Virus record (IMG/VR): IMGVR_UViG_3300031772_002373
Location: 1-28,533 of that record
DNA from: a virus
Direction: 5' to 3' (one strand)
Length of the DNA: 28,533 nucleotides
Shown here: positions 657 to 17,482 of the stretch, piece by piece
Layout of the letters: every line of letters begins with the position of its first letter
Numbering within the stretch: position 1 is the stretch's first letter
Program-made: the position numbers and the translations under genes
The notes under the pieces: model-generated
Databases searched by the model: none
The model's input: only the letters and a program-made list of their open reading frames with translations
What the model was told of the DNA's origin: nothing

Positions 657-1109
657 GTGCAGGAAATATCGGGCATTGAGTATCTAAAAACCCATTCCGA
701 CTCCCGGATTCGCCGCGACTTTATGCACTTCCTGAAAATGGCGATCAATCCTCAGCCCCGAACCGTCTCCTCTTTCTACGCCGGGTTATTGCCTGAGTCT
801 ATGGTGATACAGGCAGACTCAGATGTGATGGATCACCAAACCGATACCATGACTATGACTAAAGGCGGAGGTTCAGAACTTACCCCTGCCTTCACCAATA
901 TGCTGGAAGTGCTGTTCTACATGACGGAGGCCAGCCAGGAGTCGGGATACCGCCAACACAAGGCGACTCGGCTCTATCTGTTTCACGGGAAAAGTTATGA
1001 GGAGATCGGTAAACTGCTAGGCTGCCATGAGCGCACGGTAGAACGGGATATTGCGCAGGTCATTGATTGGGCTATCCACTGGCTGAAAGAGGACGCGAGG
1101 AGAAAATGA
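657..1109 (+). CDS. Sigma-like/HTH transcription regulator (late-regulator type)
   Basis: About 150 residues. The C-terminal third has a helix-turn-helix of the sigma-70 region 4 / ArpU type: K-S-Y-E-E-I-G-K-L-L-G followed by the recognition helix C-H-E-R-T-V-E-R-D-I (about residues 112-135). The N-terminal half has no recognisable fold; the middle is Asp/Thr-rich and probably flexible. GTG 657 is preferred because AAGGGG lies 5 nt upstream; GTG 651 is possible but its SD would abut the start. Phage proteins of this shape, placed just before the packaging genes, often activate late transcription (ArpU, Q-like or sigma-like factors). A promoter and terminator lie upstream of the terminase genes about 1.4 kb downstream, which fits. 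The target is inferred, not shown. The gene ends in an ATGA overlap with the methyltransferase. Confidence 0.7.
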   Translation: MQEISGIEYLKTHSDSRIRRDFMHFLKMAINPQPRTVSSFYAGLLPESMVIQADSDVMDHQTDTMTMTKGGGSELTPAFTNMLEVLFYMTEASQESGYRQHKATRLYLFHGKSYEEIGKLLGCHERTVERDIAQVIDWAIHWLKEDARRK

Positions 1110-1963
1110 AACCATATTACGAGGACTCGGCAGTAACCATCTATCACGGTGATTGTCGTTTGATTCTGCCCCAGTTGCCGAAGGTGGACTTGGTACTGAC
1201 TGACCCGCCGTATGAACTAACTGCGACTGGCGGAGGACTTGGTAAGAAAAGAGGCTATGCAGAATCTCTTGCAGGACTAACAGATGGGTTTGACATGGAT
1301 ATCCTCTCGCCATTTGAAAGCTGGATGTGCTTTTGTTCAAAGGATCAACTTATAGACTTGTTAACCCTTGCCGCTAAAGGCGGACGGTGGATGCTTCTAA
1401 CGTGGAACAAACCAGACCCAACACCTTTAATGAATTGCAATTATTTACCTGATACAGAGTATATTGTTCATCGATTCCAAAGACTCTACGGAGGATATGA
1501 ATCCCGTGCCAGATTTATCGTTATGCCAGGTGGCGCAAAAGATTATCACCCTACGGGTAAACCACTTAACCTGATTAGGCGGTTACTACAGGTAGGCTCA
1601 GATAACGGATCGCTTATCCTCGACCCCTTCATGGGAAGTGGCACAACATTAGTTGCTGCACAGTCGCTTGGTAGAAAAAGTATAGGCATTGAGATTGAGG
1701 AGAAATATTGCAAAATTGCGGTTGAGAGACTACGGCAAAAGCCTTTAGACTTGACAATGCCTATGAGCCATGATAGACTTAGGGTAGAAGAAAAGCAAGG
1801 AGGTCTATTCGATGGCTCACACTCAGACAGAAGAAACGAAGCGCAAAATATCGGCAGCGAACAAAGGGAGGTTGAGGACGGAGGAAGCGAGACAAAAACA
1901 AAGGGAAACTCGCAAGCAGTTATTTCGGGAAGGGAAGTTATCAATCCCATGGAAAGGCACTAA
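1106..1963 (+). CDS. DNA methyltransferase, beta class (N4-cytosine/N6-adenine)
   Basis: 285 residues from ATG 1106, which overlaps the upstream stop (ATGA) and has GAGGAGA as SD; an in-frame ATG at 1067 would lie deep inside the regulator and is unlikely. Catalytic motif IV, D-P-P-Y, is at residues 33-36 and the SAM-binding motif I, D-P-F-M-G-S-G-T-T, at about 173-181. That order (IV before I) defines the beta class of amino-methyltransferases. No target-recognition specificity can be read. Phages use such enzymes to mask their DNA from restriction. Oddly, the last 50 or so residues are hydrophilic low-complexity sequence encoded over the start of the out-of-frame HNH gene, so the native stop seems to have been lost when that gene arrived. 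A fragment matching this protein's C-terminus lies at 2273-2389. Confidence 0.9.
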   Translation: MKPYYEDSAVTIYHGDCRLILPQLPKVDLVLTDPPYELTATGGGLGKKRGYAESLAGLTDGFDMDILSPFESWMCFCSKDQLIDLLTLAAKGGRWMLLTWNKPDPTPLMNCNYLPDTEYIVHRFQRLYGGYESRARFIVMPGGAKDYHPTGKPLNLIRRLLQVGSDNGSLILDPFMGSGTTLVAAQSLGRKSIGIEIEEKYCKIAVERLRQKPLDLTMPMSHDRLRVEEKQGGLFDGSHSDRRNEAQNIGSEQREVEDGGSETKTKGNSQAVISGREVINPMERH

Positions 1964-2276
1964 GGGGATAGTTACATGGAATCGCAAGGGCAAGGATTCG
2001 ACATCATGGAAGGGTGGAAGATTCAGGGATAAGAATGGGTATATATGGCTTCGAGTCACAGAACACCCGAACGCAAATTCAAGTGGCTTGATAGCCGAAC
2101 ATAGGTTGATAATGAGTCAAATACTGGGTAGACCATTAAAGGAGAACGAATTTGTACATCACCGAAACGGAGTTAAAGATGATAATATGCCTGCGAACTT
2201 ATTACTTGTGCTGAAACGGATACACAATGGAATAGTCTCATGTCCTTATTGCGAAAGAGAGTTTGCAGTTAGATGA
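1812..2276 (+). CDS. HNH homing endonuclease with NUMOD3-like N-terminus
   Basis: 154 residues. The N-terminus (about residues 6-35) has the repeat-like S/T-E-E-x-K-x-K-I-S-x-A-N-K-G pattern of NUMOD3 DNA-binding modules of phage homing enzymes. The HNH part has A-E-H-R at about residues 95-98 and H-H-R-N-G at 116-120, followed by D-D-N-x-P-x-N-L, as in the HNH_3 group. The end carries C-P-Y-C, half of a possible zinc knuckle. The start ATG has a near-perfect SD (AAGGAGGT about 8 nt upstream) inside the 3' end of the methyltransferase, in another frame. Such free-standing endonucleases nick or cut a neighbouring gene to spread themselves. The flanking methyltransferase pieces suggest that gene was the target. 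Confidence 0.88.
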
Positions 2277-2389
2277 TAACACTCCGAGCAGCCAAAGACC
2301 TTGGCAGAAAAGCCATAGGCATCGAGATTTGTGAGGCTTATTGCGAGATAGCAGCCAAGAGAATGAGCCAGACAGTGATGTCATTATGA
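2273..2389 (+). pseudogene. Orphan C-terminal fragment of a DNA methyltransferase
   Basis: A 38-codon frame begins with ATG 2273, overlapping the HNH stop as ATGA. Its product aligns with residues about 180-211 of the upstream methyltransferase: by eye 20 of 32 positions match, including L-G-R-K, I-G-I-E-I and Y-C-x-I-A. This is the strand-helix after SAM motif I, up to a normal family C-terminus. The catalytic D-P-P-Y part is missing, so alone it cannot be an enzyme. It is best read as the stranded 3' end of a methyltransferase gene split or replaced when the HNH endonuclease gene inserted. Confidence 0.7.
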
Positions 2390-2409
2390 CAACTAGCCCC
2401 AAATAATCG

Positions 2410-2452
2410 GCGACAAGGCCAGCTTCAGAAAATGCCATTTTTGTCGCTTTTG
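2410..2452 (+). terminator. Terminator-like hairpin after the methyltransferase operon
   Basis: GCGACAAGGC (2410-2419) can pair with GCC (2434-2436) and TTGTCGC (2441-2447), with a small ATTT bulge, and is followed by TTTTGT. The stem is good but the T-run is short. Its place 20 bases after the last upstream stop and just before a promoter fits the end of the left-hand operon. Confidence 0.5.
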
Positions 2453-2455
2453 TCC

Positions 2456-2475
2456 TTGACAGGGTGTGTTATACT
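2456..2475 (+). promoter_or_regulatory. Extended -10 promoter for the late/packaging operon
   Basis: TG-T-TATACT (2467-2475) is a good extended -10 element. A TTGACA at 2456-2461 precedes it, but with only 8 bases between the hexamers it is too close to serve as a normal -35 for this -10. Transcription would start near 2482, in the only sizeable gene-poor stretch of the window, pointing towards the terminase genes. A very similar TTGAC / TGnTATAmT arrangement precedes the minus-strand gene at 13617-13952. Confidence 0.55.
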
Positions 2476-2497
2476 TATCCTAGCGGAATCGTATCAG

Positions 2498-2524
2498 AGG
2501 GCGCTTAAAGAGTGCCTTTTTATT
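2498..2524 (+). terminator. Terminator/attenuator 20 nt after the promoter
   Basis: AGGGCGCT (2498-2505) pairs with AGTGCCTT (2511-2518) over a five-base loop, with two G-U pairs, and is followed by TTTTTATTT. This is a rho-independent terminator shape. It would cut a transcript from the promoter at 2467-2475 to about 40 nt, so late genes would need read-through or antitermination. Confidence 0.55.
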
Positions 2525-2531
2525 TGACTGC

Positions 2532-2621
2532 AACCAGGGCTTTCTCCTCCCTGGTTATCCCCTCCCTTGAGGGGATTCTCCGTTTCACCCCTCCTTTCTG
2601 ATTTGGTGCTGGCGAGGCCAG
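2532..2621 (+). other. Cluster of perfect hairpins upstream of terminase
   Basis: Three inverted repeats follow one another. AACCAGGG (2532-2539) pairs with CCCTGGTT (2549-2556); ATCCCCTC (2557-2564) pairs with GAGGGGAT (2569-2576) over a CCTT loop; CTGGC (2609-2613) pairs with GCCAG (2617-2621) over GAG. A short direct repeat of CACCGG follows at 2631-2642. The cluster could be structured leader RNA or a DNA packaging/recognition site. No coding explanation is apparent for 2525-2649. Confidence 0.45.
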
Positions 2622-2649
2622 ACATGACTTCACCGGCACCGGCACGGAA

Positions 2650-2889
2650 ATGAGAAGCAGTAAAGCAGGCGCAGTTGTAGAACGAGCCAGGGTAGCTGAG
2701 GAGGCCTTGCTCATCCAGTTCGATAAGCACGCGGGTAACCCTACCTCAGTCGGCGAGGGTATAGCCCGCCTCCCAGTCCAGACCTGCCCTGAGCTGGTAA
2801 AGTTCTGCATCCTCTCCGGCTGGTCGGCTTACTACCGGGGCGGTTATATTATCCTAAAACGTGGTTGCGGCATGGGGGGGAGGGGGTAG
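2650..2889 (+). CDS. Uncertain 79-residue ORF before terS
   Basis: An open frame with a fairly protein-like composition (a helical N-terminal half and an aromatic Tyr/Trp-containing segment near residues 58-68), but no convincing ribosome binding site and no recognised family. Its TAG stop (2887-2889) lies inside the G-rich tract, and the terminase small-subunit frame continues in the same phase directly after it. It may be a real small gene, the decayed front of a longer terminase small subunit, or chance. Confidence 0.3.
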   Translation: MRSSKAGAVVERARVAEEALLIQFDKHAGNPTSVGEGIARLPVQTCPELVKFCILSGWSAYYRGGYIILKRGCGMGGRG

Positions 2890-2931: not shown

Positions 2932-3309
2932 ATGGCTGAGAATGGGCAGGAAAACGCAGACGGACGAAAACCCAATGGCTGTTTCGCCCCAGGTCATCAC
3001 CTTTTCGGGAAAGAGAATGGCATTAAAAACGGACGCAAAAAGGAACCCAAAACCATTGTCGCTAACGCCGTTGACGCGATCGATACCGTTAAGATTCTCA
3101 AGAAACTCGCTGAACTTTGCCTTGCTGGGAATCATCAGGCTTGTATCTATCTGTGCGATCGGCAACTCGGTAAGCCTCGGCAGGTGATGGGACTTGAGGG
3201 TTCAAAGCCGGGAGACCGGGTAGAGACCTCTCTGTTTCTCTGCTCGGACGGAACAACACGCACAGCCAAGGAGATGATGAGTGGTGACAGCAACAGTAAA
3301 ACAGATTAG
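2932..3309 (+). CDS. terS: Terminase small subunit (probable)
   Basis: 125 residues from ATG 2932; a GTG at 2893 inside the G-tract is a less likely start. The N-terminus is basic and Gly/Asn-rich, with an F-G-K-E-N-G-x-K-N-G-R-K-K-E stretch resembling the F-x-x-G-N-P-x-G-R motif of DUF5681-type proteins found beside terminases. A helical segment follows (about residues 48-75, D-T-V-K-I-L-K-K-L), ending in L-G-K-P-R-Q, also typical of that group. The small subunit recognises phage DNA and loads the large subunit. The SD is only fair (AGGGTG, about 11 nt away). The gene overlaps terL by 29 nt. Assignment rests on context plus the motif; a small DNA-binding protein of other function remains possible. 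Confidence 0.65.
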   Translation: MAENGQENADGRKPNGCFAPGHHLFGKENGIKNGRKKEPKTIVANAVDAIDTVKILKKLAELCLAGNHQACIYLCDRQLGKPRQVMGLEGSKPGDRVETSLFLCSDGTTRTAKEMMSGDSNSKTD

Positions 3310-4525
3310 GCTGCTGCCAGGGCAATCGGACATCCTGACTGACTACAAGTCGTCTGTGCAGGCTGCTATCTCCGGGACGGGCGGAGGCAAAACAATACTC
3401 GCATACTGGTGGTTGCATTCCCGCATGGAGGCACTTCCCGGCAACACCTGGGGACTCGCAGAGCCGACCTTCGGCATGCTGGCGAAGATTATGCTTACCA
3501 GCTCCGACCCTGACAGACCTTCGCTCATAGACTACTTCCGGCAGGTAGGACACCACCCGGATTATCACGCCGTCGACAAGATACTCAAGACGGACTTCGG
3601 CCAGATATATCTGGGTAGTGCTGACAACCCCGACTCCATGCAGGGGGCTGCCGTGAAAGGCTATGTGCTTGACGAGGGCGGGCAGATGAAGCTCCTGGCC
3701 TATGATACCGCCCGGCAACGTGTGTCTATGATGAGAGGCCAGATACTGATAGCAACCACGCCCTATAACCTGGGCTGGCTGCTGACTGAGGTCTGGGATA
3801 AGCGCAACCAACCAGGCTATTGTGTCAGAACGTGGCGCAGTATCGACAGACCTGGTTATCCCATCGCAAGTTACGAAGAGGAGAGGCAGAGATTACCCCC
3901 GTGGCGCTTTGCCATGCTCTACGACGGCAGGTTTGAAAGACCTGCCGGGCTTATCTATCAGGCTTTTGACGAAAGAGCCTGCCTGATTAACAGAGCGCCG
4001 ATACCGAAAACGTGGGAAATCTACGTAGGGCACGACTTCGGGGCCTCCAATCCTGCTGCTCTGTTCTATGCTCTTAATCCTGCGACCGGGCAGTTCAGGC
4101 TATTCCATGAGTACCTCCCTGGCCCCGGGCGGTCTATCCATCAGCACGTACAGGAGTTTGAGAAGATAACCGCGGGCTACAATGTGGTGAGGCGTGTGGG
4201 CGGCAGCCACCAGGAGGACGAAATCAGGCAAGGGTACAGCGCGCACGGCTGGCATATCATTGAGCCCAAGAATAACAAGGTCGAATATCAGATACTCAAA
4301 GTCCAGGGGATGCACCAGCTAAACAAGATTGAGGTGTTCAACGACCTGCGAAATTATCTTGATGAGAAAAGAACCTTCAGTCGCAAGCTCGATAGCAGGG
4401 GGATGCCGACAGAAGACATTGAGGACGAGGCGAGATACCATTTATGTGCCGCCGAGAGATATATTCTTTCTGATTTTACACCTGAGACAGTACGGAGCAA
4501 TACGATAGCGCAGGCACTATTTTAA
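3281..4525 (+). CDS. terL: Terminase large subunit (packaging ATPase-nuclease)
   Basis: 414 residues from GTG 3281, with AGGAG 7 nt upstream; GTG 3284 is an alternative. The N-terminal ATPase has a Walker A (G-T-G-G-G-K-T, about residues 32-38), a Walker B ending L-D-E-G (Asp131-Glu132) and a coupling motif A-T-T-P-Y. The C-terminal RNase H-like nuclease starts with G-H-D-F-G (Asp252); a later acidic D-E-A-R-Y (about 382) probably supplies another metal ligand. The protein cuts concatemeric DNA and pumps it through the portal. Its length is at the short end for the family, but both domains look complete. It lies 11 nt upstream of the portal gene. Confidence 0.93.
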   Translation: MVTATVKQIRLLPGQSDILTDYKSSVQAAISGTGGGKTILAYWWLHSRMEALPGNTWGLAEPTFGMLAKIMLTSSDPDRPSLIDYFRQVGHHPDYHAVDKILKTDFGQIYLGSADNPDSMQGAAVKGYVLDEGGQMKLLAYDTARQRVSMMRGQILIATTPYNLGWLLTEVWDKRNQPGYCVRTWRSIDRPGYPIASYEEERQRLPPWRFAMLYDGRFERPAGLIYQAFDERACLINRAPIPKTWEIYVGHDFGASNPAALFYALNPATGQFRLFHEYLPGPGRSIHQHVQEFEKITAGYNVVRRVGGSHQEDEIRQGYSAHGWHIIEPKNNKVEYQILKVQGMHQLNKIEVFNDLRNYLDEKRTFSRKLDSRGMPTEDIEDEARYHLCAAERYILSDFTPETVRSNTIAQALF

Positions 4526-4536
4526 GGTGGTAAGAG

Positions 4537-6216
4537 ATGGACATTGAATTAAAGGACATCGAGGAAAAGGAGCAGGAGTTCAGCGAGCTTTTTACTCGCA
4601 TGGACGCAGACAAGGCGCTGGTTTTCCTGGAGGCTTTCCAGATGAAGTCCCTGAAGACCGGGGTTGCGCTAAAACGGGTTGATAATGTGACCTTGCCCGA
4701 CCCGGCCATCTTCGTGGGGCGCGTCATGGGCTTACTCTCTTCTGCTGACCCCCAGACTGAGGTTGAGGGCGAGGAACTGTCTGACAAGGAAAGTACGCTT
4801 GTTGAGGACTTCCTGGCTGCTATGGCATACGAGATTGACAGCAGGCTGATTAAGCTGGGGAGGACACCGCTATTCCGCTTTTGCGTTGAGCAAGCCTCCC
4901 TGCGGGGTTATGTCATCACCCGGAACTGTCTGCGAGCCCTGGGGGATACCCTGATCCCCGATGTATTGCCCTGCGATGCTCGGTTTGTAACCTATGAAGT
5001 GGGCATGGATGGTTATGTGTGGGTGGCAAATAAGACCACTCGCTCTAAGGCCATGATTCAGGCTGAGTATAAGAAAGAGATTCAAACCGCTACTGAGACG
5101 GTGTGGGACTTCTGGGACTCGAAAGTCAATCGCATTTGGATAGGGAGGGAAGAAGCAAAGCAACAGCGTAATCCCTACGGATACCCACCCTTTACTATTG
5201 TCGAAGCCCCTACTGGATTACATCTGGGGGATTCGGATGCAAAGTCACACCGGGGCGAGAGCCTGTTGTCCTTGTCCCGGACGGTTTACCCTTACCTGAA
5301 TCAGATCATGACCATCTATCTGACCAGGGGGCGGCAGGTACTCAGGCCGGGTATGCAGTATGCCAGCGATGAGGGGGAGGCGAGTCAGAAGCCGAGGCAA
5401 CTAGAGGAACACCCGGCCGACACGGATGTCATTACTCCTGTGGAAAAGGGCGGAGGTTATCTCCCTGTTAATCAGGTGGGTGTGGATGCCTCGATACAGT
5501 TGGCCTGGCAGGTGCTTGATTCCAGGAAACAACAGGGCAGCATGACACAGGTGGACTATGGCAACTTAGCCTTCCCTCTGCCTGACATAGCGTTGGGGAG
5601 GCTTATGGAGCAGCGTAATCAGATCACCCTACCCATCTTGCAAGCCCTGGCCATCTCTGCGCAGCAAAACATGGAGATGTGGATTAGCCAGTACAAGATG
5701 CTCAAGAGGGCGTTTAAGATTGGTGAGACGGGGCACAAAAAGTCCTTCCAACCTGGCAGTCTGGAGGGAGACTTCACGATTAAGCAGCGGTACTTCGCCA
5801 CATCGCCTGAAGCGGACATGGCAAACTACGCTACCGCTGCTGCTGCGGGCAATATGATTAGCGACGACAGCAAGAGACGGGACATCATCAAGCTCAAGGA
5901 CCCGGGCGGCGAGATGACGAAGATTCGCTCTGAGCAGGCAGAGAAACTAGACCCGGCCATAGCCCTCTACAGGCAGATGCACGACTTGATTGACGAGGGC
6001 AAGAACGCTGAGGCGTGGCTGACGCTGGAGAGGTTGAAGATGATGTTGAAGACTCAGTTCCAACCCGCCTTACCCGCGGCAGCACAGAACATTCCAGCAC
6101 CTGCGGAAGTGACACAAGAACCTATAAATCCCAAGATTGCCCAGAAGGGCGGGCAAGGCCGGGGCGCGCAGCCCAATCAGCAACTATTGGAGGCACAACG
6201 TGGCAAAGCTGCCTAA
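4537..6216 (+). CDS. Portal protein
   Basis: 559 residues, AAGGTGG as SD. The gene directly follows terL, and the sequence has portal features: an acidic helical N-terminus, an early conserved L-x-R-G-Y-V region (about residues 120-126), a central beta-rich part with an E-Q-R-N-Q-I helix region (about 362-367), and a long charged, helical, Ala/Gln-rich C-terminus that may form a barrel. The portal forms the dodecameric ring at the head vertex through which DNA enters and to which the tail attaches. Family assignment rests on position, length and general pattern rather than a catalytic motif. The final 17 nt overlap a small ORF. Confidence 0.82.
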   Translation: MDIELKDIEEKEQEFSELFTRMDADKALVFLEAFQMKSLKTGVALKRVDNVTLPDPAIFVGRVMGLLSSADPQTEVEGEELSDKESTLVEDFLAAMAYEIDSRLIKLGRTPLFRFCVEQASLRGYVITRNCLRALGDTLIPDVLPCDARFVTYEVGMDGYVWVANKTTRSKAMIQAEYKKEIQTATETVWDFWDSKVNRIWIGREEAKQQRNPYGYPPFTIVEAPTGLHLGDSDAKSHRGESLLSLSRTVYPYLNQIMTIYLTRGRQVLRPGMQYASDEGEASQKPRQLEEHPADTDVITPVEKGGGYLPVNQVGVDASIQLAWQVLDSRKQQGSMTQVDYGNLAFPLPDIALGRLMEQRNQITLPILQALAISAQQNMEMWISQYKMLKRAFKIGETGHKKSFQPGSLEGDFTIKQRYFATSPEADMANYATAAAAGNMISDDSKRRDIIKLKDPGGEMTKIRSEQAEKLDPAIALYRQMHDLIDEGKNAEAWLTLERLKMMLKTQFQPALPAAAQNIPAPAEVTQEPINPKIAQKGGQGRGAQPNQQLLEAQRGKAA

Positions 6217-6382: not shown

Positions 6383-9300
6383 ATGACGACTGAGACATTA
6401 GCTGATGTTCCACTAAATGACCAGCGGGCTTCCCGCGTAGCGCAGAACGAGGCTTATAAGACTTGGGACGCGGCACAGCAAAAGTCCACAGCTAAAGGCC
6501 TGTACGATACCCTATCATATATCATGGCGGATAGGGGCATCCCTACTGTACCTGCATTCGCTGACTTTTTTGCGACTGCTCAAAAGTACGGATTTCTAGC
6601 GGTAAATGATGCGCTCTATGGTGCTTATTTGCAACCTGCCACAGAGAATTGGGATTATTCCGTCTCCCCAGACGAGATATTAAGCGCATTCACTACCGCA
6701 GTAACTCCAGTAGCGTCTGCGGGCCTTACAAAGTTTGTCCAGTCCCAACAGGTCGTGGTGCAGCCCTCCCCTGTTGGCGAGGAAGCCTGGAATAGTCAGT
6801 ATCTCCCCCTGCAAGAAGCCTTGTCCTACCCAGCTGGAGAGCCATACAATAGCGCGCGTGCCTATCAAGGTCTAATCAGCAACCTCACCATGTTCGGCCT
6901 CCAGGCGAAGGCCCCTGATTGGAAGTCCTTTTTTGAGTCTGTGGGCAAGTATGGCCTCCAATACACAATGGGAGTCTATGAGAAACAGACAGGGCTGGGA
7001 ACTAAATTTGAAACCAATGCCCCTCTTGCCGCTCCTGCACCTGAATATCTGGGGCAGCCGGGCACCACGGCGTATCCTTTCCTCACTATGCCCGAAGTCT
7101 TGAATCCTGAGCAGGCTCTGGTCAAGGGCGTAGAGATACCGGAGGGCTGGTTTGTCAAACTCACCCCGGACAAGAGTGAGCGCGGGTACAGTGTCACCTA
7201 CATAGGACCCGACAAGTCCGAAGTGCCTGAAGGCCAACTCTTCCAGGATGAGGCTGGCGTCTGGCTCACTCCCACGGAAGTAAAGAATAGACAAGTGGCA
7301 GCAGATAAACTAGATGAACTTACCGGACTCGTGGGTGGGGCACTTCCTGATAAGGACAAGACAAATATACTTCAGTGGGCACAGGAAAACCCGGAAGAGT
7401 ACGCCAATGCGCTGGCAGCAGAGGGACAGAACCCGCAGACCGAGGCGCTGCTCAGGTATACTGTCCCTGGGATAACCGATGAGCAGATAGACCAGATATT
7501 CAACCCGACTGCTACCACATCAGCTCTTGAGGCAACGATGCGTGCGGTTTTTCCCACCGAAAACCTCCAAGACCTTCTAACTTACGCCAGCAGTTCCCCT
7601 GATGAATTCCTGAAGAACTTAGTTGCTATTAAAGGTCGCACACCCGCTGTAGAAACGCTGTTAAGTCAACTATTCCCCGGCATGACAGCCCCACAAAAGG
7701 ACTGGATGTTCAAAACGGATACGGAGAAGGTAGCATGGCTGGAGGAGACAGGCAAACTCGGAGCGCAGCGTAATGAGACCGTCAAGACTGCGATACCTGG
7801 CATAACTGACGAAGAGATAAGCACTATCTACGGCAACCTGTCTCTTGCCTCTGCTAAAAGCCCTATAGAATCTGGGTTCGGACCTCAACTTTTGGCAGGG
7901 GCGAATAACTGCTGGGGCGATATTACCCTGCCTCAAATTTTTAATCCCAAGACAGGTAAACTCGAAATAAGCCAGCCATCCCTTCCTAAGGGCGACCTTC
8001 TCGCGCCATTCAAGGATGTGTTAGCAGTTCTCAATAAGTATGTTGATCGCCCCTGGGAAGTGGCAGTCATGCAGGCACAGGCCAGTCTAAACATCGTCGG
8101 CGGAATACTGGGGCAGGGAATGGTAGGGCAGGTTGACCCCCTGGACGATGCTGTTACTAAGAAACTTCAGGAGAACCGGGACAAGTACGGATTCTGGGGG
8201 GCTTTAGTATCGGAGGACGTGCCCGATATATGGAACGACTTCGCGGCCACCCTGCCCGGAGGAAAGCTCACCACAACTGCCATCAGCTTCCTCAACCCGG
8301 TCTATCTTATCCCAGTGGGCGGGTCATTCGGACTGGCGGCAAAGTTCACCAGCAAGATTCCCATCATCGGCGAATCGTTGGCTAATATAGCGGGTGGAGT
8401 CCAGGCAATCGAGAAGGGTGTGGGAGAGATTCTGATAGTTGCGCCTATAAAAGGTGCAGCCAAGTACACAGGCAAAGCCCTGGAAGCAGTCGGCAAAGAG
8501 ATAGGGGACGTTGCCGTAGCCCAACTCATCAAAGAATCCGGGCACCTCCTTCCCCTGATGGAACTGCCCAGCAACGAGAAACTTCTAGCCGAACTCCTGG
8601 CCCCCAACTGGATGAGGACAGTGGTTCAGACTGCCGCTAAAGTACCGGCCATCAAAACAGGGATTGAAGTCTCACTGGGCAAGAGGATATTGATTGAGCA
8701 GGGCGTCAAGGATGTTGAGAATGCCATGGGGCAAGCTGCTGTAATCAAAGGCGCTATCGATAGAATGGGGGTAGACGCCGCTTCGCTCAAGGTTAATGAA
8801 CTCGCCGCTCTGATCTCTGACGACAGGGGATTCTTTGGCTTCACTGACAATGCCTATTCTGAGATGATGGCAAAAAGGATACTGCCCGAATACAAGGCGG
8901 CGGCTGAAGCGGCGGGACCCGAGGCGGCTGCTCAGTTCGGCACGCTGGAGCACATCTTCCAGAAGCCTGATATGTATGACTGGACTGGGATTGAGCAGGG
9001 GTTGACCTATATTGAACGGGTAAAAGAGGTCAACCAGAAGGTTACAGCCTTATTGATTAAAGAGGGCGTTGACCCCAAAGTAGTTACTGAGGACTATCTC
9101 AAGAGGATAGTTGAGGGCTACACCGACACGGAAACAGGCAAGTTCATCCCTGTTAAGGGGCAACCTGGTATTAAGTCTACCAGCCTGGGCGGGAAGCCAG
9201 CCTACGAGATGCACCGCCAGTTCGAGACGATGGCGGACGGCATAGCAGCAGGATACCGATACGGCCAGTCCATGAGGACTTCTACAAGCGCCTATATCCA

Positions 9301-12300
9301 GGAGGCATTCAGGAAGATAGGCGACGAGAGGGCGCTGACCGAGATGAGTTCTCAGCTTGAAAAGCTGGGGATGAAGCCAAGAACAGTGAGCGAGATTGTA
9401 GCCCAGCAATACCCCGACCTGGTAGCAAAGTGGGGAGCGATCAAGACGGAAGCAGGGGCTTTGGGCAAGGCACAGGCTTTAGTTAATCAGGCGATAAGGG
9501 GAGAGAATATCCCGGGTCAAACCATTGATGCTCTCAAGAGATCAGGGGTTGAGATTCCTTTCGGTGGCACTCCTGTAACCAGGTCATTAGGAGAACGTTT
9601 CGAAAACGCTTTAGCTCTAACCGGACAGAACCGCACCTCTGCCCTAAGAGATTTAAGCGCAGATATTAAACAAGCTATTGGCAGCCGCAAGCCCACATGG
9701 TATCAAACCAGGGGCGAACTTACAGTTAAGACTGAACTGGCAAGACAACCCACCCTTACTGAAGGCTATCTCAGACAGGCATTCGCGGGCGGCAAGAAGT
9801 ACGACCAAGAGGCCATTGACGCCTTCAATAAGTTCTTTGGCTATACACCCGGGCGGCCAGAACTTCAGGCAACAGCCGATATTGCAGGCGTGTTAAGACT
9901 GACTAAGGCATCTCTGGACTTCTCGGCCATGAGCATCCAGGGACTGCCTTCCTGGGGGTTAGCCCATGCCACGCTGCTGAGTGACCCCGCGACTGGGGTG
10001 AAGATGCTTGGCGAGTGGTACAAAGCCTACGGGTACTCGATTAGGGCTTTCTTCGACCCCGAGACGTTATCAAAGTATATCGCCAAGGACATAGACTCGG
10101 AGATGGGGCGGATAGCAGCCACAGGGTCGTCCAGGGTGGTAGACTATTTCTCAGCCCTGGAAGCAAGAACAGGACTGGGCGGGTTAGCGGAGAAAGGTCT
10201 TTCCAAAATTCCCCTCAAACCTTTTGAGAGGGCAAACCAATCTTTCTACGCTGGCGGCGAGGTTGTTAGGAATGAGTTCTGGAAGATCATGTCCCCCAAG
10301 GCTATAGCCCAGGGGAAAGAGATTGAGTTGGCTCAGTTCCTCGATAGGCTGACCGGACTCGCTGATTCTCGGGCTGGGATGGTGCCGCTTACTGCCCGGC
10401 AGTTAGAGCAGACCTTCGCCTGGTTTGCCCCTAACTACACAAGGAGCTGCCTGACTCTTCTGGCGGATATATTCAGGGGCGGTATGACTGGGGCAGAGGC
10501 ACGGAAGGCGCTGGGTGGCATGCTAGGGGCAGGTGCGGCATTCTACAGCGCTACGGTCTATTCCATGGCGCTGCTGGAAGGTGCTACCGATGAGCAGGCT
10601 ATGGATAGGATGCTGGCAGGCTTTGGAGTAGTGCAGGACCCGATTACAGGGGACTGGTCGTGGAAGACCTCAAGCACATTTATGACCTTGCCTATAGGTA
10701 ATTACAACTTCGGGTTTGGCGGATTCTGGTATGGGCTGACCTCACTGGTAAGCAATATAGGCCAATCCTTACAGGAGACGGGAGGAAATAAAAGGACTGA
10801 CTTCCTCGCTCTAAACTTAGATAACCCCCTCGTTCAGTGGTGGTACAACAGGTCCTCGCCGTTGGTGGGAGCAGTATCTTCCTTGGTGGGCAAGAATCCG
10901 TATTTTTTGGGTGATCCTCTTGAGTCCCCCGCCCAGTTCGGGAAGTATGCCCTGAGTCTGATGGAGCCTATCTGGATGGAGGGGGGAATAAACCCGCTTA
11001 TCCCCAAGCTGGCGCAGCAATACGAAGTGCCCGAAGGGACATTAGCCAAGATTGCAACCCCTATCGGGCAAATTCTGGGCTTGAGGGTGAATCCCGACTT
11101 CTTGTGGACTAAGTTCTACGATGCGGCCAAGCCCCTGATAGCCAGGATTACCGACGATATGATGGCTCAATATACCTCTGCCGAGGAACTGCCGAAATAC
11201 TTGGAGGCCAGAGACAAGGGGACTCTGGGCTGGGCTAACCTGCCCAAACTATTGCAAGAACAGTTGAAGATGCTTTATCCCGACCTGACGGCTAAATATA
11301 ACCTTGCCCTGGATGACTCCAAGAAGAGGGACAGCGACCTATGGAAGAGCTGGACTGCCGATACTTCGGGCAATAAGGCGACCTATTATCAACGAGGCGA
11401 TGACCTCTGGAATCAGTTGCAGTCTGGCTCGATTGACACCAAGGCCATGCGGCAGTCCTGGAGCGATGCGGGACAGATGTACGGCATCGCCATAAATACG
11501 ATTGAGAACTCTACTGCCTACAAAGCCATCTACGACCAACTCAATGCCTCTCAAGCCGATGGCAGCAAGGATTCTCAGTACATGGATTTAGCCTTGCAGT
11601 CTTACAACTCGGTTATGTTCAGCGACTATCTGGATACTCAGGGGGAGTGGGACTGGGATACTAAAGACGCGGCAGTGCAGGACTTCAAAGACACCTGGGG
11701 TGAGGATGTTTACCAGCTTATCAAGAAGATGTACTCAGACAAAAAGCTGAGGGAGGGATTGAATCCCACCTTTGTGAGGCTGGCAGACGATAAAGACCTG
11801 CTGAATGAGTACTGGAAACTGCCCTATGCTACCTCAGACGAGAAGACAGCAAGAACGGATTACCTGACAAACAATCCCCAAGCTGACGCCCTGCTGGTGC
11901 TCTGGGGCTATAGGCAGAACATCCAGACTAAAGAGGCTTACGACATCCTGGTCAAAGAGGCCGATGAGCTGGGAATTCCATTGAGCCGAATCACGGGCTT
12001 GCCACCTGAGGAGATAGCACCATTTGAATTCGAGTATAACAAGATGTCTGCCGAATATGGGGCAGGCTTTAGCAATACAGCCGAGGCCAAACTCTATCTC
12101 CTAGACCCCAAGAATAAGAAGTACCTTGATTGGACAGGGAGGGATTTAACAGACGAGAATGGCGAACTGCCTAACATCAACGTCCTGAAGTTGCAGGTCA
12201 AGGATAGGACTCAGGCGGCGGAGTACAGCGCCTTGACCACAGATGAGGCACGCAAGAGTTATCTGGCTGCGAATCCTGAGTATGACGCTGACCGAATCAG

Positions 12301-13576
12301 GATAACCGCCTATAAAGCTGAACTTCCCGAGGCACAGGTTGACACCTTTGTGGAGTGGAGACAGACTGATTTCAAAGACTATGAGGACGACTGGTATCTT
12401 CAGGAGCATGGGGACTTCTTCGAGGCAGCGAAAGCCGCGAAGTTGATATCCGAAGAAACATACAGCAAGGAACACTTCAGCAAGGTGCCGACAAAGGCTG
12501 TCTGGGCACTTTACGAGGAATACAATACGCTTCCTCTGGGCAATGCCAGGGTGGAGTTCAGGAAGAAGAACCGCCCATTAGACCTGTGGATGTTCAATAC
12601 GAAGAAGGTGAGCAAGCTGGTGAGCGAGGGGCTGGTGGTAGAGAGGCCGCAGACGCTGACGACTGCCCCAACACCCGTGAAGACACCGAGTTTTAGTAAT
12701 GCACCAACGGGAGGGACAGGTGCGGGGGGAGGTGCTGTCCAAAATATGACGGAATTGAAATCTGCGCTAAACATTGGACAAAAGACAGATGTGGTTGATT
12801 GGATAACTACGAATTGGGAAAATCTGGAAGACATTAGCGCAAAGGTTCAATCTGTCATTGAGGCTAACCCTATATTGGATAAAATTGCAAATTACCTGAG
12901 TAAGACACCCTTGGTTGATGCTATTCAGGCAGACATTAAGAAAAATCCTGCATTGGCTAAGTTGGAATTGCTTGAGGGTGTTCAACCGCCAGAACCGCAG
13001 GATTACCCTGACCCAGTTAAGGGAGAAGCAGGTCATACTGTCGCTGAGTTGCCCAATGATGTGTGGAAGGCGTACTTTACCGATTACTGTGTACCCAAAG
13101 AAGCACAACAACTTATCCTGACTGGTGGTGCTGAACTGCAGGGCATGATAATGCCATCGGGGAAAATTGGCGAGCACGGAGTTGGTAGTTTGGCTGGATT
13201 TGCATGGTGGAAGGAAGGGAATCCTGGCAAGGGTGGGACAATAGAATTGGCAGGTTCGTTTGTCGAAGGGTTTGCAGCGAAACACGAAACATGGTGGGGG
13301 CAAGTGGAGAGTCAATGGATGGCACATGAGATTGCCCATTGGTATCAGGATAACGTACTTTCTGATGAAGAATATAAAGAATTTCAAAATTTACTTCCAG
13401 CCCTCAAAGGGACTGACTTGGGTGATTGGGTAATCGCCCAAGGTGCCAGTGAAGCCTATGCGTGTGTATATCAATACACACTACTTTATCCTAATCTTTT
13501 CCCGAAAGAGTTTGACAAGTTTTACAGTGGTTTAGGTATAAAAGAATTAAGGAAATGGGCAGAAACAAATCAATAG
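6383..13576 (+). CDS. Giant virion-type protein (2397 aa) with C-terminal HExxH domain
   Basis: One uninterrupted frame; SD GCGGAG. No signal peptide. The front (about residues 1-500) includes three degenerate helical repeats (about 325-484) each carrying I/F-P-G-I/M-T. From about 510 to 1420 it is long, helical and Gly/Ala-rich, with hydrophobic stretches (e.g. 1375-1400) after a region F-A-P-N-Y-T-R-S that resembles very large 'polyvalent' or internal virion proteins of phages. A Pro/Gly linker near 2095-2121 leads to a last domain with H-E-I-A-H-W (His2315, Glu2316, His2319) and a downstream S-E-A-Y (Glu2357), the layout of a gluzincin-type zinc peptidase. The likely role is an internal or ejected head protein that enters the host with DNA; the peptidase may act on cell wall, host or virion proteins. 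Roles are inferred. The bases encoding the last 280 or so residues look more AT-rich than the rest. Confidence 0.75.
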   Translation: MTTETLADVPLNDQRASRVAQNEAYKTWDAAQQKSTAKGLYDTLSYIMADRGIPTVPAFADFFATAQKYGFLAVNDALYGAYLQPATENWDYSVSPDEILSAFTTAVTPVASAGLTKFVQSQQVVVQPSPVGEEAWNSQYLPLQEALSYPAGEPYNSARAYQGLISNLTMFGLQAKAPDWKSFFESVGKYGLQYTMGVYEKQTGLGTKFETNAPLAAPAPEYLGQPGTTAYPFLTMPEVLNPEQALVKGVEIPEGWFVKLTPDKSERGYSVTYIGPDKSEVPEGQLFQDEAGVWLTPTEVKNRQVAADKLDELTGLVGGALPDKDKTNILQWAQENPEEYANALAAEGQNPQTEALLRYTVPGITDEQIDQIFNPTATTSALEATMRAVFPTENLQDLLTYASSSPDEFLKNLVAIKGRTPAVETLLSQLFPGMTAPQKDWMFKTDTEKVAWLEETGKLGAQRNETVKTAIPGITDEEISTIYGNLSLASAKSPIESGFGPQLLAGANNCWGDITLPQIFNPKTGKLEISQPSLPKGDLLAPFKDVLAVLNKYVDRPWEVAVMQAQASLNIVGGILGQGMVGQVDPLDDAVTKKLQENRDKYGFWGALVSEDVPDIWNDFAATLPGGKLTTTAISFLNPVYLIPVGGSFGLAAKFTSKIPIIGESLANIAGGVQAIEKGVGEILIVAPIKGAAKYTGKALEAVGKEIGDVAVAQLIKESGHLLPLMELPSNEKLLAELLAPNWMRTVVQTAAKVPAIKTGIEVSLGKRILIEQGVKDVENAMGQAAVIKGAIDRMGVDAASLKVNELAALISDDRGFFGFTDNAYSEMMAKRILPEYKAAAEAAGPEAAAQFGTLEHIFQKPDMYDWTGIEQGLTYIERVKEVNQKVTALLIKEGVDPKVVTEDYLKRIVEGYTDTETGKFIPVKGQPGIKSTSLGGKPAYEMHRQFETMADGIAAGYRYGQSMRTSTSAYIQEAFRKIGDERALTEMSSQLEKLGMKPRTVSEIVAQQYPDLVAKWGAIKTEAGALGKAQALVNQAIRGENIPGQTIDALKRSGVEIPFGGTPVTRSLGERFENALALTGQNRTSALRDLSADIKQAIGSRKPTWYQTRGELTVKTELARQPTLTEGYLRQAFAGGKKYDQEAIDAFNKFFGYTPGRPELQATADIAGVLRLTKASLDFSAMSIQGLPSWGLAHATLLSDPATGVKMLGEWYKAYGYSIRAFFDPETLSKYIAKDIDSEMGRIAATGSSRVVDYFSALEARTGLGGLAEKGLSKIPLKPFERANQSFYAGGEVVRNEFWKIMSPKAIAQGKEIELAQFLDRLTGLADSRAGMVPLTARQLEQTFAWFAPNYTRSCLTLLADIFRGGMTGAEARKALGGMLGAGAAFYSATVYSMALLEGATDEQAMDRMLAGFGVVQDPITGDWSWKTSSTFMTLPIGNYNFGFGGFWYGLTSLVSNIGQSLQETGGNKRTDFLALNLDNPLVQWWYNRSSPLVGAVSSLVGKNPYFLGDPLESPAQFGKYALSLMEPIWMEGGINPLIPKLAQQYEVPEGTLAKIATPIGQILGLRVNPDFLWTKFYDAAKPLIARITDDMMAQYTSAEELPKYLEARDKGTLGWANLPKLLQEQLKMLYPDLTAKYNLALDDSKKRDSDLWKSWTADTSGNKATYYQRGDDLWNQLQSGSIDTKAMRQSWSDAGQMYGIAINTIENSTAYKAIYDQLNASQADGSKDSQYMDLALQSYNSVMFSDYLDTQGEWDWDTKDAAVQDFKDTWGEDVYQLIKKMYSDKKLREGLNPTFVRLADDKDLLNEYWKLPYATSDEKTARTDYLTNNPQADALLVLWGYRQNIQTKEAYDILVKEADELGIPLSRITGLPPEEIAPFEFEYNKMSAEYGAGFSNTAEAKLYLLDPKNKKYLDWTGRDLTDENGELPNINVLKLQVKDRTQAAEYSALTTDEARKSYLAANPEYDADRIRITAYKAELPEAQVDTFVEWRQTDFKDYEDDWYLQEHGDFFEAAKAAKLISEETYSKEHFSKVPTKAVWALYEEYNTLPLGNARVEFRKKNRPLDLWMFNTKKVSKLVSEGLVVERPQTLTTAPTPVKTPSFSNAPTGGTGAGGGAVQNMTELKSALNIGQKTDVVDWITTNWENLEDISAKVQSVIEANPILDKIANYLSKTPLVDAIQADIKKNPALAKLELLEGVQPPEPQDYPDPVKGEAGHTVAELPNDVWKAYFTDYCVPKEAQQLILTGGAELQGMIMPSGKIGEHGVGSLAGFAWWKEGNPGKGGTIELAGSFVEGFAAKHETWWGQVESQWMAHEIAHWYQDNVLSDEEYKEFQNLLPALKGTDLGDWVIAQGASEAYACVYQYTLLYPNLFPKEFDKFYSGLGIKELRKWAETNQ

Positions 13577-14743: not shown

Positions 14744-15853
14744 ATGGGAACATACTTAACTCCAACTATCATCGCTAAAGAGGCGTTGATAGTGTTGGAA
14801 AACAACTTAGTCTTGGCGGGCTTGGTGCACCGAGACTACTCAAAGGAATACAAGAAAATCGGCTCTACCGTAATTGTGCGGAAACCGACCACGTTCACGT
14901 CCACGACCGTATCCAACACGGTGAACTTGAGCACGGCGACTGAGAGCAGCGTGGCAGTTGTGCTGGACAAGCACCTGGACATTACGTTCAACGTCTCGTC
15001 CCAGGAACTCTCGTTGACTATAGTGGACTTCAGCGAGCAGTTGATTCAGCCAGCGATGAGGGCACACGCGCAGGCTATCGATGCGTATCTGGCAGCGCTC
15101 TTCATAGATATACCGAATTTCTACACGGTAACATCTACCGCCGTTGCTGCCGATATAGCACACCTGAGAGAAGTGCTCAACCTCAACGGGGCTCCGATGG
15201 AAGACCGGAGATGTGTTCTGCATCCATCCACTGAAGCAGCCTATGTCTCGCTCGACGCTTTCCTGCACGCAGACAAGAAGGGTAGCACTGATGCAATCAA
15301 GGAAGCTCACATGGGGCGAGTGATGGGCATGGACTTCTATATGGATCAGAACATCAAAACCCACACCGGCGGGGACATGGCTGACGTAACAGGCGCTATG
15401 AAAGGCGCTCTGGCTGTAGGTGATGGCACAGCAACCATTGATGGTATAACCAGCGCTGGAACAGTTCTCGCAGGGGATTGCTTCAAGATTACTGGCTATC
15501 CAGTCTGGGGTGTTGTGACCACAAACGCTACTGCCAGCGCAGCGACTATCACTGTGGTCTTTACGCCGGTGATAGACCGGGTGATTGCCACCACGTCCGT
15601 GGTGAACTTCACCAAGACGCACAAGGCGAACCTCGCGTTCCATAAGAACGCCTTTGCCCTGGTGACTGCGCCTCTGGCTCCTCCCATCGGCGGAGCTGGT
15701 GCGGCAGTCCTGGAGTACAAGGGGTTAAGTGCTCGTGTAGTTTACGATTACACGATGATGACCAAGCAGAACTTGATTTCCATAGACCTACTCTGTGGAG
15801 TCAAGACGCTTGATCCCAAACTGGCGGCCAGGTTCGTAGATAGCACCAACTGA
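14744..15853 (+). CDS. Major capsid protein, P22 coat type
   Basis: 369 residues, SD AGGTGA. Features of the P22 coat group of the HK97 fold: an N-terminal helix with L-T-P-x-x-I-A-K-E-A-L, the G-S-T-V-I-V-R-K-P strand (about 40-48), the segment F-N-V-S-S-Q-E-L-S-L (about 82-91) followed by D-F-S-E, and a late A-F-H-K-N-A-F-A-L (about 303-311) before A-P-L-A-P-P. Residues about 226-290 are Thr/Ala/Gly-rich beta sequence in the place of the P22 insertion (I) domain. It forms the icosahedral shell with the scaffold made just upstream. P22-type coat with a portal and no recognised tape measure fits a short-tailed phage but does not prove it. Confidence 0.88.
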   Translation: MGTYLTPTIIAKEALIVLENNLVLAGLVHRDYSKEYKKIGSTVIVRKPTTFTSTTVSNTVNLSTATESSVAVVLDKHLDITFNVSSQELSLTIVDFSEQLIQPAMRAHAQAIDAYLAALFIDIPNFYTVTSTAVAADIAHLREVLNLNGAPMEDRRCVLHPSTEAAYVSLDAFLHADKKGSTDAIKEAHMGRVMGMDFYMDQNIKTHTGGDMADVTGAMKGALAVGDGTATIDGITSAGTVLAGDCFKITGYPVWGVVTTNATASAATITVVFTPVIDRVIATTSVVNFTKTHKANLAFHKNAFALVTAPLAPPIGGAGAAVLEYKGLSARVVYDYTMMTKQNLISIDLLCGVKTLDPKLAARFVDSTN

Positions 15854-15928: not shown

Positions 15929-17482
15929 ATGCGTATCTTATGGTCTTCCAATAGTCCCTTCGCAGCCACGGGGTATGGGATGCAGACAGCGACAGCCTGC
16001 GCCCGTCTTCAAGGCATGGGGCATGAGATGGGTATCTTCGCCTTCTATGGTCTCGATGGCTCGAAGCTCGACTGGTTTGGTATGCCCATCTATCCGAACC
16101 CAAAACACGACTGGGGCGTTAAATTAGCCCCTGATTTCTTCAAGGACTTTCAGGCTGATCTCCTGATAACTCTCGTGGATGTGTGGGTACTAGGCGACAT
16201 GGACCCGACTTTGCCGTGGTGTCCCTGGTTCCCGGTAGACCACACCCCATGCCCGCCATTGATAATCAAGGCGCTGAAATCACCGGGCATTGTGAAGCCC
16301 ATAGCCATGTCTAAATATGGGGTTATGGAGGTCGCCAAAAGCGGTATTGACTGCTATTACATTCCTCACTCGGTTAATACCAAACTGTTTAGCCCCGATG
16401 CGGAAGCCCGAAAGACTGGACGGGAGCGGTACAAGTGGCAGGACAAATTTGTTATAGGAACTGTAGCCACAAATCACTCCGAACGCAAGAACTGGTCTAC
16501 GTCTTTTCAGGCTGCAAGGATACTGGCAGACAGGCACCCGGGGGAGATCAGGTACTATTGCCACACTCACCCGGGGGATGAACGGGGCATTAACCTGGTT
16601 GAGTTGAGAGACAATCTGCACCTGGAAGAGGTTGTTTTCTTCCCTTCCATAGCCCAGATGATTATCGGCATACCGCGTGATGTCCTCGCCAGGGCATATA
16701 ACGTCATGGATGTCTTCCTTCTGCCCAGCAAGGGCGAGGGGTTTGGCATACCTCTGATTGAGGCTCAAGCCTGCGAAGTGCCGGTGATTACCACAAACTG
16801 CACGGCACAACCCGAGCTGGTTGGGGGAGGATGGCTTATCAATGGCTTGAGAAAGGTCTGGACAGGGCAAGGTTCGTGGCAGTTCGAATGCGATGCCGAG
16901 GAAGTCGCTGAACGATTAGAGCAGGCATATCAAGAGTGGAAAGACGGTTCTATCCAGGACAAGAAAACCAAGGCCAGGGAGAAGGCACTTGAGTACGATG
17001 ACGACAAGGTATATGCCGAATACTGGCCCAAGGTGCTTGATGACATAGAGAAGCGATTGAAGCAGCCCAAGAACCTTGAAGGGATACAGCAATGGCGTCT
17101 GCTATTTGTGCCTCAGTCTTGTGTGCCCCGGAAAGTCCTTGACCTGGGCTGCGGTATCACTCAGCCCTATAAGAAGGTGCTGGAACACCTGGGCGAATAT
17201 GTGGGCTTCGATATTAAGCCCGGGCCGGGTATTGTCCAGGGCGATGCGCACAACCTGCCCTTCAAGACAAAGGAGTTCGGATTTGTATGGTGCTCTGAGA
17301 TGCTGGAACATGCCCGGGACCCGAGGCAGGTTGTAGCGGAGGCCAAGAGGGTGGCGAATCACGGGATAATCCTGTTCAGCACGCCGGCTAATTCCAACTT
17401 CAGAATTGACCCTGACCATAAGGTTGTGCAGGGGATAAAGTATTCCGTTGTAGCTTCAGGGGACGGTCTCATATCGTGGTGA
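15929..17482 (+). CDS. Glycosyltransferase (GT4-like) fused to SAM methyltransferase
   Basis: 517 residues, SD AAAAGGAG. The first 350 or so residues are GT-B-like: an N-terminal S-S-x-x-P-F-A-x-x-G-Y-G loop and, at about 267-290, G-E-G-F-G-I-P-L-I-E-A-x-A-C-E, the E-x7-E nucleotide-sugar site of family GT4. The last 120 or so are a class I methyltransferase of type 11: V-L-D-L-G-C-G (about 402-408), G-F-D-I, a D-A-H-N-L-P-F loop and C-S-E-M-L-E-H. One protein could thus transfer and methylate a sugar. It directly follows the capsid hairpin and is coupled to the radical SAM gene 4 nt on. The methyltransferase end seems short, perhaps lightly truncated. The acceptor (host glycan or virion protein) is unknown. 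Confidence 0.85.
   Translation: MRILWSSNSPFAATGYGMQTATACARLQGMGHEMGIFAFYGLDGSKLDWFGMPIYPNPKHDWGVKLAPDFFKDFQADLLITLVDVWVLGDMDPTLPWCPWFPVDHTPCPPLIIKALKSPGIVKPIAMSKYGVMEVAKSGIDCYYIPHSVNTKLFSPDAEARKTGRERYKWQDKFVIGTVATNHSERKNWSTSFQAARILADRHPGEIRYYCHTHPGDERGINLVELRDNLHLEEVVFFPSIAQMIIGIPRDVLARAYNVMDVFLLPSKGEGFGIPLIEAQACEVPVITTNCTAQPELVGGGWLINGLRKVWTGQGSWQFECDAEEVAERLEQAYQEWKDGSIQDKKTKAREKALEYDDDKVYAEYWPKVLDDIEKRLKQPKNLEGIQQWRLLFVPQSCVPRKVLDLGCGITQPYKKVLEHLGEYVGFDIKPGPGIVQGDAHNLPFKTKEFGFVWCSEMLEHARDPRQVVAEAKRVANHGIILFSTPANSNFRIDPDHKVVQGIKYSVVASGDGLISW

Follow-up and report, generated by a model that had tools for sequence, protein, structure and literature searches.

The question raised by this locus is how a tailed phage turns on its packaging and head genes. 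The window analyzed here is a virus record of 28,533 bases, one strand of IMGVR_UViG_3300031772_002373 (positions 1-28,533), whose late region lies on the plus strand and fills the right-hand 25 kb. Upstream of the terminase genes, a first-pass annotation had described a promoter directly followed by a terminator and likened this layout to the late switch of phage lambda. The host is probably Dehalococcoidia, as suggested by the spread of the TerL family, which comprises nine IMG/VR loci and one Dehalococcoidales assembly (L038, 60% identical).

Gene order and the promoter-terminator pair

To the left of the switch lie genes for a VRR-nuclease-like protein (below the Pfam cut-off), the putative regulator (651/657-1109), a DNA methyltransferase and an HNH endonuclease (Table 1). 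Two relatives, L002 and L006 (records L021 and L014, respectively), permit this region to be compared. L002 has a TerL 99% identical to that of the window and lacks the methyltransferase and HNH genes, so the 1.3-kb gap between regulator and switch in the window is an accessory insert. In L002, about 80 nt separate the end of the regulator gene from the spacer element, and regulator and switch adjoin; just a few methyltransferase codons are left there. Within the insert, the methyltransferase and HNH genes overlap at the 3' end of the former, and a second methyltransferase-like C-terminus follows the HNH gene, as if that gene had been inserted with a duplicated end.

Downstream of the switch, neither the first small ORF (no family match) nor the presumed TerS (no Pfam or PHROG match) could be assigned from its sequence. 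A run of G-tracts at 2874-2901, just 5' of the presumed TerS gene, could form a G-quadruplex; it is present in L002 and missing from L006. Further into the late region, the 2397-amino-acid protein encoded between the 4537-6216 gene and the capsid gene has no Pfam match. Directly 3' of the capsid gene, a single gene (15929-17482) combines glycosyltransferase and methyltransferase domains, which is unusual for a head module.

Table 1. Coordinates of the features discussed, in the window unless another locus is named
Feature	Position	Strand	Evidence or remark
Putative late regulator, about 150 aa	657-1109 (alternative start 651)	+	PF08281, E 4.6e-6; phrog_1558
Accessory insert between regulator and switch	1106-2390	+	PF01555, PF13392; absent from near-identical L002
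N4/N6 DNA methyltransferase, part of insert	1106-1963	+	
HNH endonuclease, part of insert	1812-2276	+	
Methyltransferase-like 3' remnant, part of insert	about 2279-2390	+	remnant translation
Putative loading element TTGTCC-TTGACAGGG	2450-2464	+	-32 to -18 from predicted start
Extended -10 element TGTTATACT	2467-2475	+	sequence; 9/9 identical in L006
Conserved initially transcribed sequence, +1 to +20	2482-2501	+	19/20 identical in L006
AATCGT, +6 to +11, candidate -10-like pause element	2487-2492	+	weak, 3/6; read by eye
Predicted intrinsic terminator, hairpin and U-run	2496-2524	+	predicted default transcript about 40-43 nt
Two adjacent perfect hairpins	2532-2576 (2532-2556, 2557-2576)	+	past terminator
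Hairpin just 5' of first short gene	2605-2640	+	11-bp stem also in L002 and L006
First small ORF past switch	2650-2889	+	conserved in L006
Presumed small terminase subunit, TerS	2932-3309	+	position alone
Terminase large subunit, TerL	3281-4525	+	phrog_2, E 7.5e-23
Protein without match	4537-6216	+	late region
2397-aa protein	6383-13576	+	late region
Major head protein	14744-15853	+	
Second-family member	L038:7271-7768		
Second-family member	L004:1-333		
Second-family member	L063:3607-4014		
Second-family member	L033:5031-5462		
Second-family member	L060:1498-1971		
Second-family member	L059:1456-1914		

The promoter and the hairpin that the first-pass annotation had placed before all packaging genes are both found in the window, with TerL lying downstream. 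The extended -10 element has the predicted position, and transcription is expected to start near 2482. TTGACA occurs just 8 nt from the -10 element, which is too close for a normal -35. A generic scanner listed neither the switch promoter, because its filter demands a -35 that is absent here, nor the switch hairpin. Upstream of the -10 element, TTGACAGGG occupies -26 to -18, and the putative loading element to which it belongs has a position comparable to that of the elements bound by Q, AlpA and GafZ between -35 and -10. Even with 3 mismatches allowed, the window contains the 20-base motif TTGACAGGGNNTGTTATACT only once (0.01 expected).

The hairpin, annotated earlier at 2498-2518, is formed by AGAGGGCGCTT/AAA/GAGTGCCTTTT at about 2496-2519, followed by T's to 2524. 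Folding of the region 2490-2524 yields -12.8 kcal/mol (z -3.4), and the hairpin is the only terminator-like site among the plus-strand intergenic gaps of the window. A purpose-made scan of both strands likewise found a single promoter-then-terminator pair. Sixty dinucleotide shuffles contained 0.25 such pairs per shuffled window, a rate that falls to 0.083 for hairpins of -11 kcal/mol or below and gaps of up to 40, limits within which the window's pair lies.

Conservation of the unit in a second lineage

L006 carries a regulator that is 75% identical, over the alignment, to the window's 657-1109 protein. About 25 nt after its gene comes the whole switch unit of spacer element, -10 element, +1 to +20 and terminator. 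The terminase of L006 is a different one and was not returned by searches with the TerL of the window. Against a yardstick of 28 identical sites among the 52 fourfold sites of the regulator gene, window and L006 agree at 4/4 positions of TTGT, 9/9 of TTGACAGGG, 9/9 of the -10 element and 19/20 of +1 to +20, and at 1/6 of the 6-nt discriminator. The binomial tail for +1 to +20 is 8e-5, a rough figure because the sites are not independent. The hairpin and T-run are formed in both lineages, with a slightly longer stem in L006. By sequence comparison, the layout is thus confirmed as real and as conserved ahead of different terminases. Within +1 to +20, AATCGT is the only hexamer with an A at position 2 and a T at position 6; it is conserved in L006 and is a weak match (3/6) to a -10-like pause element.

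These comparisons bear on the simplest alternative, in which the resemblance to a promoter arose by chance and the hairpin does no more than end transcription of the upstream early operon. Terminators are commonplace at the end of such operons, the promoter scores in the middle range (9), and similar layouts were found at 4 of 140 gene ends at cut-off 9 in the scan described below, one of them being the L063 regulator itself. Coincidence does not, however, predict that -10 element, spacer element and +1 to +20 are conserved in register in two lineages and well above the identity of fourfold sites, and this explanation is considered very improbable.

The transcribed leader is itself structured. 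Positions 2482-2580 fold better than all 200 of their own shuffles (z -4.7), and two adjacent perfect hairpins follow the terminator, where L006 has one. For the hairpin at 2605-2640, 97% of cells are paired with one two-sided change, a value that is not above shuffles and comes from 3 sequences. The terminator stem showed no compensatory change in the comparison of relatives, and Rfam returned no match at E <= 1. Between the hairpins, CCTCCTTTC, the Shine-Dalgarno complement, is conserved (window 2590-2598, L006:3584-3592).

Such a leader raises the possibility that the regulator is an RNA, either the 40-nt default product or the multi-hairpin leader 2496-2640, acting as a small RNA, an attenuator or a put-like cis element. 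The put sites of HK022 consist of adjacent hairpins and act in cis on polymerase without a protein. The hairpin pair at 2532-2576 recalls this arrangement, and both the strong folding and the conservation of +1 to +20 would suit a functional RNA. A put-like RNA is nevertheless disfavored: L006 does not keep the hairpin pair, the Rfam search gave nothing, and each of the three records with the unit (window, L002 and L006) also has the regulator gene, which the unit directly follows in the latter two, whereas put acts without a protein. An RNA regulator is therefore judged improbable.

The exact unit is confined to just two independent lineages. The DNA pattern GTTATACT-N(8-22)-GTATCAGAGG was found in 18 IMG/VR stretches, of which only the L002 and L006 records are real; the other 16 were rejected by eye as having neither spacer element nor terminator. 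In a second exact scan of IMG/VR, both matches (2/2) were records that also carry the regulator. No relatives of the regulator were detected in the genome contigs searched, and a regulator search of 393 Dehalococcoidia genomes produced one weak helix-turn-helix match only (E 9e-4). A covariance model of the unit, run without a positive control, matched 0 of these 393 genomes and, among 18 sources, only the three sequences from which it was built.

The putative regulator gene and an unrelated family in its place

The sigma-like or helix-turn-helix regulator claimed by the earlier annotation upstream of the pair is supported by a match to sigma-70 region 4. The protein belongs loosely to phrog_1558. 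Its AlphaFold2 model is poor overall (mean pLDDT 46) and fair in the C-terminal third, where residues 73-149 match region 4 of sigma factors; the best match is 1or7, with residues 76-148 aligned to sigma-E region 4 (Z 8.7, 67 aligned residues, 2.3 A). The Foldseek and VIA matches listed for the regulator are mostly sigma region 4 chains. 21Q and AlpA are absent among them, which is uninformative given the poor query model (pLDDT 46). The N-terminal half (residues 1-82) has no confident model and no assigned fold; in a Q-like protein, it should form the nozzle. An alternative sigma factor was considered and rejected, since region 4 alone was matched and no region 2 was detected in the 150 residues. 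PDB sequence matches to lectins and hemopexin were judged to be chance. The predicted recognition helix varies between the window (HERTVERD) and L006 (HVNTVRND), while the proposed site is unchanged. As the first-pass annotation had anticipated for the lambdoid proteins, searches of Pfam, PHROGs, NCBIfam, PDB sequences and INPHARED phages detected no homology to known Q, AlpA or GafZ.

The regulator could instead be a plain activator of late initiation, similar to the Ltr/RinA proteins of Gram-positive phages, staphylococcal ones among them, with the hairpin ending early transcription or insulating the late operon; Xpf of PBSX is a further late activator of this kind. Position alone would fit, as Ltr-type activators are small proteins whose genes likewise lie directly upstream of the late promoter that they control (PMC13123087). 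In addition, phrog_1558 also matches in Bacillus subtilis, and the lack of a properly spaced -35 is as expected for an activator-dependent promoter. The promoters of Ltr-type activators carry repeats upstream of the core, through which initiation is activated (PMC13123087), but no multiple direct repeats of the Ltr/RinA type were found in 2276-2455, only short, chance-like ones. Furthermore, because the promoter lies before the hairpin, late transcripts would still have to cross it, and an activator requires neither a terminator downstream of its promoter nor the conservation of +1 to +20, which here equals that of the promoter; the word "terminator" has 0 occurrences in the main text of PMC13123087. 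Activation without antitermination is the leading alternative and is rated unlikely.

Without the exact sequence, the layout is more common than the exact unit. In L004 and L038, another small-protein family takes the place of the regulator, these two members being 39% identical to each other; further loci came from a search of 393 genomes. Members of this second family share conserved W and WPP motifs, and their C-terminus is basic. They gave no Pfam match (L038 and L004 tested) and no significant PHROG match. In several cases, the gene lies directly 5' of a promoter-terminator pair in proviruses or phages of Dehalococcoidia. L063 is a provirus whose early genes, TerS, TerL, portal and capsid were named by eye from translations; its second-family gene is followed by TTGACA-17-TATACT and then, 31-34 nt on, by a strong terminator. 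L053, L033 and L067 appear similarly arranged by eye, with the terminator of L033 lying about 100 nt past the promoter. L059 and L060/L064 do not have a promoter-terminator layout. L037 (=L005) was set aside, because the genes that its hairpin faces are convergent ones on the minus strand and the contig end truncates the gene upstream.

A strict scan compared the 430 bases 3' of 11 regulator genes from the two families with 140 other gene ends. As the settings had been relaxed once (an earlier scan with an 80-nt limit had found the layout at 2/11 loci), results are given for cut-offs 8, 9 and 10: the layout occurs at 5, 4 and 2 of the 11 regulator loci (shuffle expectation about 0.06, 0.08 and 0) and at 6, 4 and 3 of the 140 other ends. 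With the L063 regulator removed from the control, Fisher p is 1.6e-4 at cut-off 8 and 5e-4 at cut-off 9. A conservative count, which leaves out L006, because it shares a family with L002, and L068, whose frame is odd and whose family membership is doubtful, gives 3/9 versus 3/139 (p 0.003). The strict scan did not find the layout at 6 to 9 of the 11 regulator loci, some of which show weaker or more distant forms by eye, and the L053 hit hinges on scoring, since the scan placed the promoter at 786 and inspection by eye at about 840. Given the small sample, the settings widened once and the shared families, these statistics are support rather than proof.

Proposed switch and its relation to known systems

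The reading favored here, which is rather probable, is a late switch of a tailed phage that works on the Q principle; promoter use, termination, binding, pausing and read-through are all predicted from the sequence. Host polymerase would start at about 2482 from the extended -10 promoter and, by default, terminate at the hairpin 2496-2524 after about 40 nt. Once the 657-1109 regulator accumulates, its sigma-region-4-like domain would bind TTGACAGGG just upstream of the -10 element. Polymerase would probably be held briefly within the conserved first 20 bases, where the regulator could join it, and the resulting complex would continue past the terminator to the packaging and head genes. The lambda-like layout proposed by the first-pass annotation has gained support, as the unit is conserved beside the regulator in L006 and the pairing recurs after an unrelated family. 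Passage through the terminator under control of the regulator is proposed by analogy, for a protein in which no homology to known antiterminators was found. As a working model, the lambda analogy is good and has independent support from the comparisons.

A broader interpretation, which is tentative and somewhat doubtful at present, is that a promoter-terminator late switch is common to Dehalococcoidia phages and is served by an exchangeable antiterminator, either a free-standing sigma-region-4 protein or a member of the unrelated family (L038, L004, L033, L053, L063 and L067). If this were true, a Q-type switch would have been assembled independently in Chloroflexota together with a new antiterminator family, and the -35-binding domain of sigma would have been reused at a displaced TTGACA beside the -10 element.

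Few antiterminators that load at promoters are known, and since they have no sequence in common, they cannot be detected by homology. What can be searched instead is the layout of regulator, promoter, early terminator and packaging genes, which here singles out two candidate families among phages from a phylum rich in uncultured members. Should these be antiterminators, Q-type control would have arisen repeatedly, and a short module testable with reporters would be gained. The open papers listed for Dehalococcoides, prophage and antitermination together did not deal with the subject in title or abstract opening.

Lambdoid phages place a small regulator gene just upstream of the Q-dependent late promoter. 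Like lambda pR'-tR' and 21PR'-21tR', the window has a single predicted late promoter, a small regulator gene upstream of it, a predicted terminator close downstream and a candidate spacer element. The DNA element of 21Q is located within the promoter spacer; 21PR' lacks any -35-like sequence and has a -10-like pause, and the crystal structure of 21Q resembles sigma region 4 bound by an anti-sigma helix (PMC6606751). The window likewise lacks a normal -35, and the C-terminus of its regulator has a predicted fold similar to sigma region 4. In contrast to lambdoid Q systems, no homology was found, the presumed host belongs to a different phylum, the match to a -10-like pause is weak, and TTGACAGGG stands in place of the TGAGCA repeats.

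AlpA of Pseudomonas aeruginosa has a C-terminal helix-turn-helix and an element between -35 and -10, and its terminators begin at +26 and +54 (PMC7969949, PMC9371919). A candidate spacer element, a predicted early terminator and a C-terminal helix-turn-helix are shared by the window, but AlpA serves chromosomal lysis genes rather than packaging genes, and a PDB search revealed no sequence relation. GafZ of the Caulobacter gene transfer agent is an antiterminator with a sigma-like helix-turn-helix. Its site lies between the -35 and -10 elements of a head-gene cluster, and it requires GafY and IHF and acts on a terminator past the first gene (PMC11150451). The window resembles it in the sigma-like helix-turn-helix and the putative site in the spacer and differs in that its terminator begins near +15. 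AlpA, 21Q, lambda Q and 82Q are described as lacking mutual sequence homology (PMC7969949, PMC9371919). In position and domain order, the predicted regulator of the window fits this class of promoter-loaded antiterminators, and no sequence homology to them was detected, just as they have none to one another.
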